Below are positions 31,942-43,369 of a stretch of 64,000 nucleotides of DNA, one piece after another. The stretch is from assembly GCF_900187565.1 (NCBI RefSeq), contig NZ_FYED01000001.1, forward strand, positions 248,001-312,000. The letters are read 5' to 3'. Positions within the stretch are counted from its first letter, which is position 1. Each line of letters begins with the position of its first letter. The DNA is from Pseudomonas sp. Irchel 3A7 (GTDB taxonomy: Bacteria; Pseudomonadota; Gammaproteobacteria; Pseudomonadales; Pseudomonadaceae). The notes under the pieces were generated by a model. It saw only the letters and a program-made list of their open reading frames with translations. It did no database searches and was not told the origin of the DNA. The position numbers were made by a program, and so were the translations under genes.

Positions 31942-33617
31942 ATTGGATAAAACTTGAGCACTTGTTGCTCAAGGCTCAGCCGGAGCGTGTCGTAACGGCC
32001 GAACCGGCGCTGAATCACGCACAACTGTGCGAACAGGTCCTGAGCCTGGCCGCCGGCCTGCAAGCCAAAGGCGTGCAGCGCATCGCCGTGCACCTTGAGG
32101 ACGCCGTCGACCTGGCGATTGCCCTGCTCGGCGCGTGGCGTGCCGGGGTCAGCGTTTTGTTGCCGGCCGACCTGCAAGCCCAGACTCGCCAGCGCTGGTC
32201 GGGCGAAGTCGACCTGTGGCTCACCGATCAACCCGATGACGCCCGTCTGGACGATTTCCAGTACCCGCCACTGGCCGCTGCGGCACTGGATCTGGATCGC
32301 TGTTCCCTGAGCCTGTGCACCTCCGGCTCCAGCGGCGAACCCAAGCGCATCGAGAAAAACCTGCGCCAACTGATCAATGAAGTCGAAGCCCTGGAGCAAC
32401 TGTGGGGCGCCGACCTGGGCCCGGCGTGCATCATTGGCAGCGTCGCCACCCAACACATTTACGGCCTGCTGTTTCGGGTACTTTGGCCGCTCTGCGCCGG
32501 GCGCCCGTTCGTGCGCAAGCAATTGGCCTTTCCGGAAGACCTGCAACGCGCCAGCCGTTTGCACCCGGCCTTCGCCTGGGTCGCCAGCCCGGCGCTGCTC
32601 AAACGGATGGGTGACAACCTCGACTGGCGGGCCTTGAGCACGGTGCGTCGGGTGTTTTCATCCGGCGGCGCATTGCCAGCCGAGGCCGCACAGAGCCTGC
32701 ACGAGCGCCTGCATCAATGGCCGACCGAAATTTTCGGCAGTTCGGAGACCGGTGGCATTGCATGGCGTCAGGGGCACGATCTGTGGCAACCCTTCGCCGA
32801 TGTCGCGCTGAGCCAGGACAAAGACGGCGCTCTGCTCATCACCTCGCCCTACTTGCCCGCCGGCCATGTCGAACACACCGCCGATGCAGCGAAAATCGCC
32901 CCTGATGGCCGATTCGAATTGCTCGGGCGGCTGGACCGGATCGTCAAACTGGAAGAAAAACGTATCTCGCTGCCAATGCTGGAGCAGGCGCTGACGGCTC
33001 ATGATTGGGTCGCCGAAGCGCGGCTGGGTGTCGTTCAGGAAAACCGCGCCTCACTGGGGGCGCTGCTGGTACTCAGCGAAGCGGGGTTGCATGCCCTGCG
33101 CAACCAAGGCCGACGCGGCCTCACTGAGACCTTGCGCCAACATCTGAGCCAACACTGCGAAGCCCTGGCCCTGCCACGGCGCTGGCGTTTGCTACGGCAA
33201 CTGCCGCTGAACGCTCAAGGCAAACTGCCCCAAGCCGATGTCGAAGCCCTGCTGCTGGCGCCGCGCCCCAAGGCGCCACTGGTGCTGGAACAGATCGAAA
33301 CCGAGGGCGAGTGGAGCCTGCAACTGGCCGTGCCACCGGACCTGGCCTATTTCAGTGGCCACTTCCCCCGAGCGCCGGTGCTGCCGGGCGTGGTGCAAGT
33401 GGAGTGGGCATTGAGCCTGGGCCAGCAATTGATGAACCTGCCGGCAAAATTCGCCGGCATGGAAGTGCTGAAGTTCCAGCAACTGGTGCGTCCCGGTGAT
33501 GAAGTGCAATTGCACCTGCGCTTCGACCCGAGCCGCAACAAACTGTATTTCGCCTATCGCAATGAAACCGCTACCTGCTCCAGTGGGCGGATTCTGCTGG
33601 AGACAGTACATGCATAG
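31938..33617 (+). CDS. Acyl-AMP ligase fused to a FabZ/ApeI-like dehydratase
   Basis: 559 residues from the ATG at 31938. The N-terminal 450 residues are an ANL-type adenylating enzyme: the phosphate loop TSGSSGEPK is at 128-136, [12 protein letters not shown] is the adenine-site motif, and the catalytic lysine region is LNAQGKLP. It should activate an aromatic acid for loading on a carrier protein. The last about 95 residues form a hotdog dehydratase with YFSGHFP (His475) and [12 protein letters not shown], so 3-hydroxyacyl dehydration is combined with starter loading in one chain. A REPIN separates it from the next gene. Confidence 0.9.
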
Positions 33618-33640: not shown

Positions 33641-33715
33641 TTCGCGAGCAGGCTCGCTCCCACAGGGAGACTGCGGTGCTCACCCGTTCAGTGTGGGAGC
33701 GAGCCTGCTCGCGAA
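33641..33715. repeat. REPIN inside the aryl polyene operon, reversed orientation
   Basis: Arms TTCGCGAGCAGGCTCGCTCC and GTGGGAGCGAGCCTGCTCGC with heads facing inward. It fills the ligase-glycosyltransferase junction. The flanks carry the 7-bp direct repeat ATGCATA at 33610-33616 and 33749-33755, compatible with a target duplication that restored a ligase end and kept a glycosyltransferase start. Confidence 0.9.
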
Positions 33716-33748: not shown

Positions 33749-34483
33749 ATGCATAACCCCTGCGCCGTCATCCCGGTCTATAACCACGAAACCGCGATCA
33801 CCACCGTGGTCGAGGCACTGCTCGCCAGCGGTCTGCCGTGCATTCTGGTGGACGACGCCAGCGATAAGCCCTGCGCCACGGTCCTGGATCAACTGGCCCA
33901 GCGCGACAAGGCGCACTTGATCCGCCTGGCCGCCAATCAGGGCAAGGGTGGTGCGGTGATGACCGGCCTGCGTGAAGCCTCGCGCCTGGGTTTCAGCCAC
34001 GCCTTGCAGGTGGACGCTGACGGTCAACACGACCTGCAAGACGTCCAACGTTTCATCGACCACTCCCGCGCTTATCCCGAGGCTGTGATCTGCGGCTATC
34101 CGCAGTACGACGCCAGTGTGCCCAAAGGTCGCCTGTATGCCCGCTACCTGACCCACGTCATGGTCTGGATCAATACCCTGTCGCTGCAGATCCGCGACTC
34201 CATGTGCGGCTTCCGTGTCTATCCGTTGCCGCCGGTACTGGCGCTGATCGACACCGCGAAGATCGGCAAGCGCATGGATTTCGATTCGGACATCCTGGTG
34301 CGCCTGGCCTGGCGCGATCAGCCGATGCAATGGCTGCAAACCCGAGTTCACTACCCTCTGGACGGCGTTTCGCATTTCCGCATGTTCCACGACAACGTGC
34401 TGATTTCGAGCATGCACACCCGGTTGTTCTTCGGCATGCTGCTGCGCTCGCCCCTGATTCTCTGGCGGCGGTGGCGAACATGA
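33749..34483 (+). CDS. Glycosyltransferase family 2
   Basis: 244 residues from the ATG at 33749, with AGGTG 9 bp upstream; the reading frame continues upstream to 33620 through the REPIN, but those residues are repeat translation. GT-A fold enzyme of the dolichyl-phosphate mannosyltransferase/DPM1 type. CAVIPVYNHE opens the nucleotide-sugar domain, ILVDDASD and LQVDADGQHD carry the metal-binding acidic residues, and NQGKGGAV is typical of the subgroup. A hydrophobic patch, but no complete membrane anchor, is at the C-terminus. It would attach a sugar to the pigment head or lipid anchor. It overlaps the next gene by 4 bp. Confidence 0.9.
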   Translation: MHNPCAVIPVYNHETAITTVVEALLASGLPCILVDDASDKPCATVLDQLAQRDKAHLIRLAANQGKGGAVMTGLREASRLGFSHALQVDADGQHDLQDVQRFIDHSRAYPEAVICGYPQYDASVPKGRLYARYLTHVMVWINTLSLQIRDSMCGFRVYPLPPVLALIDTAKIGKRMDFDSDILVRLAWRDQPMQWLQTRVHYPLDGVSHFRMFHDNVLISSMHTRLFFGMLLRSPLILWRRWRT

Positions 34484-36946: not shown

Positions 36947-37364
36947 CAAGGGAGTGCTCCACACCGATACGGAAATCCTCGTGCCGTTCTTTGACGTCGA
37001 CAGCATGAACGTCGTCTGGCACGGCCATTACGTCAAATACCTGGAAATCGCCCGCTGTGCGTTGCTGGACAAGATCGGCCACAACTACAGCGCCATGTCC
37101 GGATCGGGCTACGCCTGGCCGGTGATCGACCTGCAACTGCGCTACGTGCGGGGCGCGGTGTTCGGTCAGAAGCTGAACGTGCGCGCCAATCTGGTGGAGT
37201 GGGAGAACAGACTGAAGATCAACTACCTGATCAGCGACCTGGAAACCGGCGAACGCTTGACCCGCGCCGTTTCCGTGCAAGTCGCCGTCGACATGGGCAG
37301 CCGCGAGATGCAACTGGCTTCGCCGAAGGTCTTCACCGACGCCGTCGAACGGGTGCTCTCATGA
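36939..37364 (+). CDS. Acyl-CoA/ACP thioesterase (4HBT family)
   Basis: 141 residues from the ATG at 36939, with GAGG 4 bp upstream and an 8 bp overlap with the lyase gene. Hotdog-fold thioesterase with the motif FDVDSMNVVWHGHYVKYLE near residue 19, typical of the 4-hydroxybenzoyl-CoA thioesterase/YbgC family. It may release the finished polyene or correct mis-primed carriers (ApeK position in studied clusters). Its stop codon overlaps the next ATG by 4 bp. Confidence 0.88.
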   Translation: MRSKGVLHTDTEILVPFFDVDSMNVVWHGHYVKYLEIARCALLDKIGHNYSAMSGSGYAWPVIDLQLRYVRGAVFGQKLNVRANLVEWENRLKINYLISDLETGERLTRAVSVQVAVDMGSREMQLASPKVFTDAVERVLS

Positions 37365-38059
37365 ATGCCCGCCACTTCCCTGTGGGAGCGAGCCTGCTCG
37401 CGATGGTCGATAACGATGATGCTGGGCACCTGACACCCCGTGGCGTTCTCAGGTTTTTCGCGAGCAGGCTCGCTCCCACAGTGTTTTGTGTGTTGCTGGG
37501 TATTCCAGGGCTGGCCCATGCCTTCGATCTGCAACAGCTCAGCGATCAGCTGGCCAGACCCGAAGTTATCCACGGCAGCTTCGTCCAGGAGAAACACCTG
37601 CGCGCCCTGCCCCAGCCGCTGACCAGCAAGGGCTCCTTCGTCCTGGCAAAAAACCAGGGTTTGTTGTGGCTGTTGAAAACGCCGCTGCAACAGGATTACC
37701 GCATCACCACCAAGGGCATCGCACGACGTGATGCCAGCGGTTGGAAGATGCTGCCGGGCAAGAGCGCCGGTGCCGAGCAGAACCGTTTGTTCCTCGCCGT
37801 GTTGCAAGGTGACAGCAGCGGGCTGCAACGGGATTTCGAGCTGTCACTGAGTGGTGACCCACAGAACTGGAAACTGACACTGGTGCCACGCTCAATGCTG
37901 CTCAAGCAGGTGTTCAACCAGATCAACATCACCGGCGGTGAACTGGTGCACAGCATCGAATTGCTGGAAACCCAGGGTGACAGCACCCTGTTGCGCATGC
38001 AGGACAGCACCAGCGCACAACCGTTGAGCGACGCGGAGCAACATGACTTTGCCGAGTGA
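37361..38059 (+). CDS. LolA-like outer-membrane carrier with REPIN-encoded residues in its signal peptide
   Basis: 232 residues from the ATG at 37361, coupled to the thioesterase stop (ATGA). From about residue 55 the protein is a LolA-type periplasmic carrier: FDLQQLSDQLARPEVIHGSF starts the mature chain and the rest fits the beta-barrel-like half-fold. Before it, codons 8-40 lie in a complete REPIN in frame; the REP arms read GASLLA and FASRLAPT. The hydrophobic core FCVLLGIPGLAHA follows directly. Removing 99 bp between the two GTG codons at 37382 and 37481 gives a compact, normal signal peptide. Export function should persist, but the n-region is abnormally long. An in-frame ATG at 37403 inside the repeat could also start translation. 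Confidence 0.87.
   Translation: MNARHFPVGASLLAMVDNDDAGHLTPRGVLRFFASRLAPTVFCVLLGIPGLAHAFDLQQLSDQLARPEVIHGSFVQEKHLRALPQPLTSKGSFVLAKNQGLLWLLKTPLQQDYRITTKGIARRDASGWKMLPGKSAGAEQNRLFLAVLQGDSSGLQRDFELSLSGDPQNWKLTLVPRSMLLKQVFNQINITGGELVHSIELLETQGDSTLLRMQDSTSAQPLSDAEQHDFAE
37381..37480. repeat. REPIN inserted in frame in the LolA-like gene
   Basis: Arms TGTGGGAGCGAGCCTGCTCG and CGAGCAGGCTCGCTCCCACA inverted about 50 bp apart, 20 bp after the ATG of the LolA-like gene. GTG is present at both boundaries (37382 and 37481), 99 bp apart, so the insertion is a whole number of codons. Confidence 0.92.
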
Positions 38060-40382: not shown

Positions 40383-41539
40383 TGATCGCCCTGTTTTGGG
40401 TAATGGCCCTGACCCTGTTTGCCGTAGCGACACGAGTCGGTCGCCACTTCGGCCTGATCCCGATCGTCAGCCAGCTGCTGTTGGCGACCGTCGGCCTGCC
40501 GCTGCTGATGTATTTCTGGATCGAACCGCAATGGCAGTTGAGCGGCGCGGCGCTGGTGTCGCCGCTCTGGCTGAAGAACCTCTACAGCTTGAGTTTCGCG
40601 CTGTTGCTGGGTTACATCCTCAGCGACGTGATCGACCTGCACCTGGACCGCCAGAGCCTGAAAATCGCCCTGCCGAGCTTCTGCATTCCGTTCGCCTGCG
40701 GCCTTGCCACGGCGATCTGGCTGTTGCCGCCGCAGCCCTGGATCAGCTCCCTGGCGGTAGGCTTGCTGTTCGCCATTACCGCGATCCCGGTGCTGTACCT
40801 GTACCTGCGGCATATCGATTATCCGCCCGCCGCCACTCGGCGGCTGGTGCAGACCGCGATCCTCATCGACCTCACTTGCTGGAGCCTGTTCGCCGTCGCC
40901 CAAGGCACCCTGCACCTGAGCAGTCTGTTACTGCCACTGGCCGGCGCCTGTCTTCCGGTGCTGCTGAGACTGCTGGGCCTGCGCCAACTGTGGCTGTACA
41001 GCCTGGGCTTTTTCGCCCTGCTGGTGGTGGCCGAACACTACAAGCTCAATGCGCTGATTTTCGGCATCGGTTATGTGCTGATCATGGCCGCACTGAAAGC
41101 ACCGCTGGTACTGCCGCTGCCGGCGATCTGGATGAGCCGCTTGCAGACCTACATGGCCATTCCGTTGATCCTCACCTTCGGCATCGTGCAAATCAACGTG
41201 CACAGCGCCATGGACAGCCTCGGCTGGGTGCAATTGGCGGCGCTGCTGCTGTTGCCGATTGCCAGCAAACTGCTGGGCAACTGGCTCGGCCTGGGCTGGG
41301 CCGGCGCCTCGTTCCAGGGCGCCAGTCGCTGGCGGGAAAGTGTGCTGCTGAACATTCGCGGCTTGAGCGAGATCGTCTTTCTCAACCTGCTGCTGCAACA
41401 ACAGCTCATCAGCCCGGCGCTGTACTTTGCGCTGATGCTGATGGGCCTGATCGCCACATTGCTGCCGGTACTGGCCGGCATGCACCGGATTCCCCTGAAA
41501 GCTGCCGTCCCGGCAAGGAGCCCTCATGCCAACCGTTGA
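40379..41539 (+). CDS. Polytopic membrane protein, CPA2-exchanger-like
   Basis: 386 residues and about 11-12 transmembrane helices. The sequence resembles a cation/proton antiporter of the CPA2 (Kef) group: a short N-terminal helix bundle, then a long inward array, and near the end LNIRGLSEIVFLNLLL followed by PALYFALMLMGLIATLLP, a pattern common to that family. Helix 5 lacks an obvious double-aspartate ion site, so transport activity is uncertain. It lies between the MMPL pump and the halogenase-like gene in the same coupled operon, a place where I know no standard aryl polyene gene. A role in energising export is only a guess. Confidence 0.7.
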   Translation: MMIALFWVMALTLFAVATRVGRHFGLIPIVSQLLLATVGLPLLMYFWIEPQWQLSGAALVSPLWLKNLYSLSFALLLGYILSDVIDLHLDRQSLKIALPSFCIPFACGLATAIWLLPPQPWISSLAVGLLFAITAIPVLYLYLRHIDYPPAATRRLVQTAILIDLTCWSLFAVAQGTLHLSSLLLPLAGACLPVLLRLLGLRQLWLYSLGFFALLVVAEHYKLNALIFGIGYVLIMAALKAPLVLPLPAIWMSRLQTYMAIPLILTFGIVQINVHSAMDSLGWVQLAALLLLPIASKLLGNWLGLGWAGASFQGASRWRESVLLNIRGLSEIVFLNLLLQQQLISPALYFALMLMGLIATLLPVLAGMHRIPLKAAVPARSPHANR

Positions 41540-42773
41540 AATGGAACATCGCCGGATCGTGGTCATCGGCGCAGGCCCTTCGGGTGCCATCGCCGCCGCG
41601 CTGCTCAAACGCAAGGGACACGATGTGCTGGTCATCGAGCGTCAGCATTTCCCACGCTTTTCCATCGGTGAAAGCCTGTTGTCCCATTGCCTGGATTTCG
41701 TCGAAGAAGCGGGCATGCTCGACGCTGTCAACGCCGCCGGTTTTCAGCTCAAGACCGGCGCCGCGTTTGCCTGGGGCGAGCGGTACAGCGCCTTCGATTT
41801 CGGCGACACCTTCACCCACGGCAAGCCGACGACCTTCCAGGTCCAGCGCGCCGATTTTGACCAGTTGCTGGCCGATCAAGCGACACTGCAAGGCGTGGAG
41901 ATCCGTTACGGCGAAGCCATCGTCAGCGTCGATTTCGAACACGCCAAACCGCGACTTGGCGTGCGTCGCGAAGATGGCAGCGAATATCGTGTCGAGGCCG
42001 ATTTCATGCTCGACGCCAGCGGTTACGGTCGCGTGCTGCCACGCCTGCTCGACCTCGAAGCACCGTCGAACTTCCCGGTGCGCCAGGCGGTGTTCACCCA
42101 CGTCGAAGACCATATCGACCAGCCGAATTTCGACCGCACCAAGATCCTCATCACCACCCATCCGATCCACCGCGATATCTGGTTCTGGACCATCCCGTTC
42201 AGCAATGGGAGATGCTCAGTAGGTGTGGTCGCGGCAAAAGAACACTTCGAGGGCCGTAGCGACGATCTGGACGACTGCCTGCGCGGTTTCATTGCCGAGA
42301 CGCCAAGCCTGGCCGGCGTACTGGACAATGCCGTGTGGGATACACCAGCGCGCACCATCGGCGGTTACTCAGCCAACGTTAAAACCCTGCACGGGCCGGG
42401 TTTTGCGCTGCTGGGCAACGCCGCGGAATTCCTCGATCCGGTGTTCTCCTCCGGCGTCACCATCGCCATGCGTTCGGCGAGCATGGCCGCCGGGGTGCTG
42501 CACCGCCAGTTGCAAGGCGAAGCCGTCGACTGGCAAAAAGAGTTCGCCGAACCACTCAAGCGCGGCGTCGACACCTTCCGTTGCTACGTCGAAGGCTGGT
42601 ACGCCGGGACCTTCCAGGACGTGATTTACCATGAGGGCGGCTCGCCGGAAATCCGTCGCATGATCAGCTCGATCCTGGCCGGCTACGCCTGGGACGAACG
42701 CAACCCGTTCGTCAGCGAGGCCAGGCGTCGCTTGAAAATGATCTCGGAACTCTGTGCAAGGGATGCCACATGA
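41526..42773 (+). CDS. Flavin-dependent halogenase-like oxidoreductase
   Basis: 415 residues. FAD-binding Rossmann motif GAGPSG is near residue 15 and GESLLSHC is the typical second FAD contact. Three halogenase landmarks are present: a lysine at 76 (QLKTGAAF), where the chloramine/bromamine lysine of tryptophan halogenases lies; WFWTIP at 219-224 (the WxWxIP motif that prevents monooxygenase activity); and FLDPVFSSG at 302-310 (FxxPxxSxG). The FSSG variant is the one seen in halogenases of phenolic or carrier-bound substrates (for example PltA). It would chlorinate or brominate the aryl head of the polyene, as in brominated xanthomonadins. Activity is inferred. Confidence 0.8.
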   Translation: MPTVEMEHRRIVVIGAGPSGAIAAALLKRKGHDVLVIERQHFPRFSIGESLLSHCLDFVEEAGMLDAVNAAGFQLKTGAAFAWGERYSAFDFGDTFTHGKPTTFQVQRADFDQLLADQATLQGVEIRYGEAIVSVDFEHAKPRLGVRREDGSEYRVEADFMLDASGYGRVLPRLLDLEAPSNFPVRQAVFTHVEDHIDQPNFDRTKILITTHPIHRDIWFWTIPFSNGRCSVGVVAAKEHFEGRSDDLDDCLRGFIAETPSLAGVLDNAVWDTPARTIGGYSANVKTLHGPGFALLGNAAEFLDPVFSSGVTIAMRSASMAAGVLHRQLQGEAVDWQKEFAEPLKRGVDTFRCYVEGWYAGTFQDVIYHEGGSPEIRRMISSILAGYAWDERNPFVSEARRRLKMISELCARDAT

Positions 42774-43369
42774 GCTATTCAACCTGTGGGAGCGGGCTTG
42801 CTCGCGAAAGCGGTGCATCCTTCAACAGTGATGTTGGATGTGATGCCCTCTTCGCGAGCAGGCTCGCTCCCACAAGGGTTCCGAGTATTCTGCGATTTTT
42901 GCTTCTGGGCTGTGTTCTGCTACTGAGCGCCTGCGCCAGCCAGGCACCGCTGCCCGAGCAAACCCCGAGCCTGTCGTTGCCGCTGCAATTGCATATCCAG
43001 CGACTGCAAGCCGAACAGCGCCAGGACTGGGTGCTGGTGATCCAGCGTGAAGGCCCGGCCATTCGCTGGTCGATGATGGACCTGCTGGGCATTCCACAGG
43101 CGCGTCAGAAACTGGTGGATGGAGCATGGCAGGCTGATGGCCTGCTGCCGCCCAACCCGGAAGCCCGGGAGCTGTTCGCGGCGCTGTTGTTTGCGCTGAC
43201 CCCGCAGGACGAATTGCCCGGCAACTATCCGCAAGCCTGGCAACACGGCGCACAACGCTCCTTGCCCGCACGCTGGGACGTGCGCTATTTACAACCGATG
43301 AGCTTTGAATTGAACTTGCCCGAAGGCCCGAAATACCAAGTCACGCCGCTGAGCGGGGAGGCACCATGA
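42770..43369 (+). CDS. Outer-membrane lipoprotein (DUF3261-like) with REPIN-encoded N-terminus
   Basis: 199 residues from the ATG at 42770, coupled to the previous stop (ATGA). The lipobox is LLSAC with the lipidated cysteine at residue 55. The sequence after it is short and rich in Leu and Gln, as in DUF3261 lipoproteins of aryl polyene clusters (ApeN-like position). Between ATG and the hydrophobic core, codons 5-34 are a complete in-frame REPIN. No other ATG, GTG or TTG in frame occurs between 42770 and the hydrophobic core, so translation must go through the repeat. Removing 90 bp (30 codons) leaves a normal start, MSYST plus RVPSILRF. Confidence 0.83.
   Translation: MSYSTCGSGLARESGASFNSDVGCDALFASRLAPTRVPSILRFLLLGCVLLLSACASQAPLPEQTPSLSLPLQLHIQRLQAEQRQDWVLVIQREGPAIRWSMMDLLGIPQARQKLVDGAWQADGLLPPNPEARELFAALLFALTPQDELPGNYPQAWQHGAQRSLPARWDVRYLQPMSFELNLPEGPKYQVTPLSGEAP
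42784..42875. repeat. REPIN inserted in frame in the lipoprotein gene
   Basis: Left arm CTGTGGGAGCGGGCTTGCTC and right arm GCGAGCAGGCTCGCTCCCAC inverted, starting 15 bp after the ATG. The codons ACC at 42782 and ACA at 42872 are 90 bp apart, so the frame is preserved. Confidence 0.92.

Follow-up and report, generated by a model that had tools for sequence, protein, structure and literature searches.

An in-frame REPIN at the start of an apeN-like lipoprotein gene in Pseudomonas, likely translated within a disposable signal region

REPINs of Pseudomonas fluorescens, i.e., inverted doublets of REP sequences, are described as elements of extragenic space (excerpts of PMC3116915). In a stretch of 64,000 nucleotides from Pseudomonas sp. 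Irchel 3A7 (here called the window, to which all coordinates refer), one such element lies inside the reading frame of a predicted lipoprotein gene, which raises the question of whether the repeat is translated and how it can persist there. REPs within genes are already known: according to the excerpted text of PMC3733652, intragenic REPs of the GTAG/CGTC kind exist, many of them at the N-terminus of ORFs, and REPs between genes of the same direction sit near the 3' end of the upstream ORF. The same source infers that most REPs at the N-terminus of ORFs go untranslated in P. putida, C. koseri and S. maltophilia, a doubt that for P. putida rested on shorter homologues. A literature search, with subscription journals and supplements mostly outside its coverage, listed no paper that, judged by title, beginning of the abstract or excerpts, concerns REPINs in signal peptides. 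What appears to be new is a REPIN kept in frame inside the signal region across many Pseudomonas species.

The apeN-like gene and its repeat

The gene (42770..43369, +) encodes an apeN-like lipoprotein of 199 amino acids in an ORF free of stop codons across the whole repeat. Its start ATG shares bases (ATGA) with the stop codon of the preceding gene for an FAD-dependent oxidoreductase (41526..42773, +), from which the repeat is separated by 11 nt. The predicted h-region and the lipobox LSAC occupy 42890..42934 (+); the cysteine behind the hydrophobic core is residue 55 (codon 42932-42934), in agreement with the sequence-only reading. The window protein has no match in Pfam or NCBIfam, whereas DUF3261 matched two of four tested homologues, both below the cut-off, and NCBI names some homologues Lipoprotein or DUF3261. 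The putative label apeN-like derives from gene order and from these names. The order thioesterase, LolA-like, MMPL/RND, lipoprotein and ketosynthase agrees with apeK-apeO of the aryl-polyene cluster of E. coli as given in excerpts of PMC8253772, from which the window differs by extra genes between the MMPL and lipoprotein genes; the operon is thus probably of aryl-polyene type.

The repeat spans 90 bp from TGT at 42785 to ACA at 42874 (42785..42874, +) and forms codons 6-35 of apeN, one codon further downstream than the codons 5-34 read earlier. Its 5' REP arm (42785..42808, +) is of type G, with 30 exact copies of its 20-mer in the genome, and its 3' REP arm (42851..42874, −) is of type E, the commonest of the five types counted, whose 20-mer has 1634 exact occurrences. 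The two inverted arms of 24 nt are 92% complementary, lie 42 nt apart and fall within the span of about 70-110 nt that characterizes a REPIN; the RNA of 42740-42905 folds with -88.7 kcal/mol (z -9.1 against 200 shuffles). The element is a genuine high-copy repeat, because 128 segments of its own genome match 42740-42960 (palindromic copies counting on both strands) in addition to the 1634 copies of one arm 20-mer. The RAYT-type domain Y1_Tnp (PF01797) has two matches above cut-off in this genome, one of them near REPIN copies on the same contig. Since structure, copy number and RAYT gene all fit, the element was filed as a REPIN, so that the in-frame REPIN in the apeN n-region claimed from the letters of the window is borne out. 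A REPIN array elsewhere in the genome (G000:C20:143236-144421) adjoins one of the two RAYT-type transposase genes.

The window thus shares with P. fluorescens, as portrayed in excerpts of PMC3116915, the inverted REP doublet, the high copy number and the RAYT-type genes of its genome, but differs in that two genes hold a copy within their coding frame, which is kept across species. The customary site of a REPIN is outside genes; the apeN copy differs in being in frame within one. Of 55 REPINs sampled elsewhere in the genome by similarity to the in-gene copy, 41 have a length that is a multiple of 3 and are open in this frame, most measuring 90 nt. ORFs lie over or beside 34 of 60 own-genome REPINs in a raw, uncurated ORF list. 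Residues 1-46 of the window protein, used as query, found a similar peptide in ten proteins, six of them apeN homologues (P0001, P0002, P0069, P0083, P0125, P0126) and four resembling translated repeat arrays (P0121-P0124).

Spread of the repeat and origin of the start codon

Homologues of the apeN-like protein were found by protein search in 243 of 298 genomes of the genus. Besides the window, the set comprised the best 100 listed matches and, from a second collection, the top 80 named loci out of 114, in all 181 sequences, of which 157 differ from one another over 600 bases. In the stretch from the start codon to the lipobox, 77 of these 157 loci have a REPIN with two arms, seven have an apparent remnant and 73 have neither; since the loci were picked by similarity to the window protein, such fractions are not genus-wide frequencies. 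Two arm matches with at most 6 edits occurred at 79 loci, from which L057 (another repeat) and L088 (overlapping matches) were removed by eye. The seven remnants were also picked by eye (L049, L050, L060, L076, L080, L088, L159), and two of them, L050 and L159, have a longer apeN front end without a recognisable arm. At L057, counted among the 73, a different repeat lies ahead of the core and the usual ATG position is empty; at L049 and L207 the lipobox is away from its expected position.

A long N-terminus unrelated to REPs, as considered in the sequence-only reading, proved not to be universal when the orthologues were compared: in most REPIN-free relatives apeN begins near MIRFLLLGC, and in all four of those displayed its start codon touches or overlaps the upstream stop. 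Presence and absence of the REPIN were mapped on a FastTree phylogeny of apeN, the FAD gene and the MMPL gene for 155 loci (two of the 157 fell below the tree minimum for the lipoprotein or FAD gene; branch support was unused). At least 14 changes are required, against at least 43 in 200 shuffles, which suggests that inheritance accounts for most occurrences of the apeN REPIN, along with a number of gains, losses or exchanges. Carried by 77 of 157 loci, with seven further loci judged remnants and few changes of presence (14), the apeN repeat marks a widely shared site rather than a single private insertion, and on this point the earlier proposal does not hold as worded. At L215 (Pseudomonas bubulae), outside the main clade, a REPIN stands at the apeN start with no ordinary start codon ahead of it.

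The start codon of the window has a history of its own. At 132 of 155 loci the interval from the FAD gene to apeN is long enough for a further gene, which is missing at the other 23, the window included; in all three cases translated, the gene in that gap is, by look, methyltransferase-like. The bases ATGAGCTATT (42770..42779, +), now the apeN start, are identical to the beginning of this gene in L144 and L139, and the window sequence just before the REPIN is similar to the flank of apeN in L046. On these grounds a deletion probably gave apeN the start codon of the lost methyltransferase-like gene. The resulting MSYST beginning is not an assembly error, since a metagenome protein with 94% identity shares it.

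Probable translation of the repeat and competing explanations

The explanation that we consider likely is that the REPIN behind the apeN start is translated as a disposable n-region, the removable signal providing a safe harbour. Lying at codons 6-35, directly after the start codon, the repeat would be read as n-region, and a cut by signal peptidase II before Cys55 would discard the peptide it encodes. REPs would usually land just behind a stop codon, and because in the window both apeN and apeL begin within the preceding stop codon, a repeat in that position falls within the gene that follows. Two conditions would have to hold for its persistence, namely an open frame and a downstream protein whose front end can be removed; apeN and apeL, both signal-peptide genes, could offer the latter. 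In 65 of 66 cases the distance from the upstream stop to the 5' arm is 2-41 nt.

An open frame that starts ahead of the repeat with an ATG (73 carriers), GTG or TTG is present in 75 of the 77; the exceptions are L131, where the frame is lost, and L215, which has no start ahead. When the start nearest to the upstream stop was taken blindly, 78 of 83 lengths of carriers or remnants were multiples of 3, four of the five odd ones arising from another start taken by the rule (L049, L051, L095, L141) and the fifth from the frameshift in L131. For the full set of 156 loci that have an upstream ORF, this rule gave 138 multiples of 3; beyond these five, the exceptions are 13 REPIN-free loci, most with an extra ATG further up. 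On the tree the apeN front changed its length at least 47 times, the five odd lengths included. The carriers are related, and none of these counts is made up of independent cases. The L131 copy measures 89 nt and shows a run of A in its loop; it is the sole clear frame loss among carriers, which may be real or a sequencing error.

Avoidance of stop codons had been considered as the main proof of translation and was dropped, 41 of the 55 own-genome REPINs being already open and a multiple of 3 in length. Because the family is mostly of 90 nt and open in this frame, the absence of stops is weak evidence alone and a single in-frame insertion is unsurprising. The notable point is the keeping of the frame over the long term rather than one insertion in frame. 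Compared with the intragenic REPs in the excerpts of PMC3733652, the apeN element is alike in lying within an ORF, near the upstream 3' end and, as is often the case there, at the N-terminus; it differs in that the frame kept over many species suggests translation, in a signal region.

The inverted arms are the subject of the first competing explanation, which regards the repeat as a regulatory hairpin that would slow ribosomes and tune the relative output of the two coupled genes, with the open frame as no more than the price. In 53 distinct in-gene copies of 90 nt, 1245 of 1272 arm positions form Watson-Crick pairs and a further 11 form G-U pairs, whereas redealing the arm partners 500 times gave a maximum of 1158 Watson-Crick pairs. 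This conserved pairing, the very strong RNA fold and the 11 nt from stop to 5' arm in the window would suit a hairpin, the more so as REPs less than 16 nt behind a stop reduce translation in E. coli (work cited in the excerpts of PMC12306157). However, the distance from stop to arm varies across the 2 to 41 nt given above, the repeat is absent from many relatives and apparent remnants free of a hairpin exist. Copies elsewhere in the own genome have paired arms as well, so the pairing needs no local function. Regulation by the hairpin is on balance unlikely.

The arm types follow the repeat family of the host. The 5' arm is of the commonest of the five types of its host in 25 of 36 carrier genomes (shuffled mean 8.6) and the 3' arm in 23 of 36 (shuffled mean 8.0), neither value being reached in any of 20000 shuffles, a test that ignores kinship among the carriers. 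In 11 of the 36 genomes the 5' arm is not of the commonest type; the window is one of them, its element combining a type G arm on the left with the host-dominant type E arm on the right. Arm types that differ between species and track the host family would, indirectly, fit a mobile REPIN. Similarity of the loops was considered as proof of an exchange limited to the arms, since among in-gene copies that differ in their arms the loops are identical at up to 38 of 42 positions. This argument was dropped, as pairs of own-genome copies have a median loop identity of 29 and reach 42, and the window loop shares 35 positions with genomic copies and 34 with its nearest orthologue. Renewal of the arms may have occurred by gene conversion or by replacement of the whole element.

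According to a second alternative, the repeat is an untranslated leader and the protein starts behind it; most species would then use GTG or TTG, and the window a non-canonical ATT or CTG or else the TTG at the beginning of the core. REPs at the N-terminus of P. putida ORFs were mostly judged to be untranslated (excerpts of PMC3733652), and a later start is possible for 59 of the 77 carriers, whose frame offers a GTG, TTG or ATG (ATG in seven) in the stretch from the repeat to 11 codons short of the cysteine. By this 11-codon rule, the other 18 have no ordinary later start. The window, judged by its sequence, is among them: as had been noted from the sequence before, no ATG, GTG or TTG is in frame from the 3' arm to the hydrophobic core, which the TTG at 42899 itself opens. 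Shine-Dalgarno matches of at least 4 bases favour the upstream start, being present at 57 of 67 such starts and at only 15 of 55 best downstream starts, with 13 loci having no downstream start. The keeping of the frame in 75 of 77 carriers and 78 of 83 lengths would likewise be unexpected for a leader, and we hold this alternative to be improbable.

Translation as part of a discarded signal peptide, as favoured here, makes a prediction about the peptide itself. Among 60 carriers, dN/dS is 0.95 in the 5' arm, 0.94 in the loop and 0.95 in the 3' arm, compared with 0.45 between repeat and cysteine (pairs of equal length there only) and 0.13 in the mature part; these values come from the 693 of 1770 pairs with a synonymous divergence of 0.02 to 0.45 in the mature part. 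The REPIN-encoded peptide thus shows no apparent sign of selection, and a kept frame with a drifting sequence is what would be expected of a protein part that is discarded, presumably with no benefit to the host. A function of the peptide, for instance as a targeting extension, might be read from its long retention in one large clade and is very improbable in view of the dN/dS of about 0.95 across the repeat, of close relatives with apparent remnants or clean absence, and of five 100-nt in-gene copies (L048, L084, L139, L141, L149) in which the 5' arm is in another frame while the 3' arm is in the usual one.

Signal regions as sites for repeats

The second in-frame REPIN that had been reported for the same operon is present as well: it spans 100 bp (37381..37480, +) in the signal region of the apeL-like LolA gene (37361..38059, +), whose start ATG shares bases with the thioesterase stop (ATGA). 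In the window a GTG follows immediately after this REPIN, so that its translation is less certain than that of the apeN copy. Of the operon genes, three bear putative labels, namely thioesterase, antiporter-like and HAL. Across the HAL-KS2 stretch of the 157 loci, 105 REPINs were counted, 73 at the apeN start, 24 at the apeL start and eight just behind KS2. The screen covered REPINs of this kind, and none was found in this stretch at the starts of the thioesterase (150 loci), MMPL (155), antiporter-like (140), FAD (155), KS1 (157), dehydratase (57), KR (55) and KS2 (57) genes. The earlier suggestion that tolerated positions are selected, as distinct from that of independent insertion, is thus strengthened: 97 of the 105 stand at the starts of the two signal-peptide genes. 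Where room exists the repeat is simply intergenic, e.g., as a REP doublet at ~33641-33715, which lies after an ORF ending at 33617 and ahead of an ATG at 33749, in contrast to the apeN and apeL copies.

Among 150 apeL orthologues, 31 have a REPIN of the apeN kind, 17 a GTAGCAGCTG-type palindrome, six the GTGGCGAGC type, three a type of the P. syringae group and one another palindrome; the classes were set by peptide motif, and at least one more GTAGCAGCTG case (L056) was missed. The GTGGCGAGC type recurs outside apeL, with 24-42 matches in the fetched loci, where the other non-REPIN palindromes of apeL have 0-2. The GTAGCAGCTG-type palindromes were considered as repeats, which is unsupported given 0 or 1 matches outside apeL in these loci. 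Reading frames are open throughout the apeL inserts of the displayed orthologues, and by the blind rule 137 of the 150 apeL lengths are multiples of 3, the 13 others belonging to no repeat class. A broader reading is put forward tentatively, with somewhat more doubt than trust: cleaved signal peptides might be a standing niche in which, in gap-free operons, several unrelated palindrome families settle just after the start of genes for secreted proteins and are translated and discarded, their arms being rewritten by the resident repeats over the whole lifetime of the species group. Palindromic elements of Rickettsia, which according to excerpts of PMC10969869 lie in frame in many unrelated genes and modify the gene product, are alike in being palindromic repeats in frame in protein genes. 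They are likened here by description, not by sequence; the case at hand differs in being a REPIN and in the predicted cut-off end, and the in-frame copies identified here lie in two genes of the operon.

The apeN site offers a natural test of translation for REPs at gene starts, which was doubted earlier, and its REPIN separates constraint on the frame from constraint on the sequence. With some caution, the spread of database lengths of apeN homologues, 150-226 amino acids among 120 listed, would also be due in part to the repeat and to which start codon is chosen. Being fixed and orthologous, the site lets the turnover of REPIN arms be tracked across species, and the apeN case shows where a repeat of mobile type can live within coding DNA.
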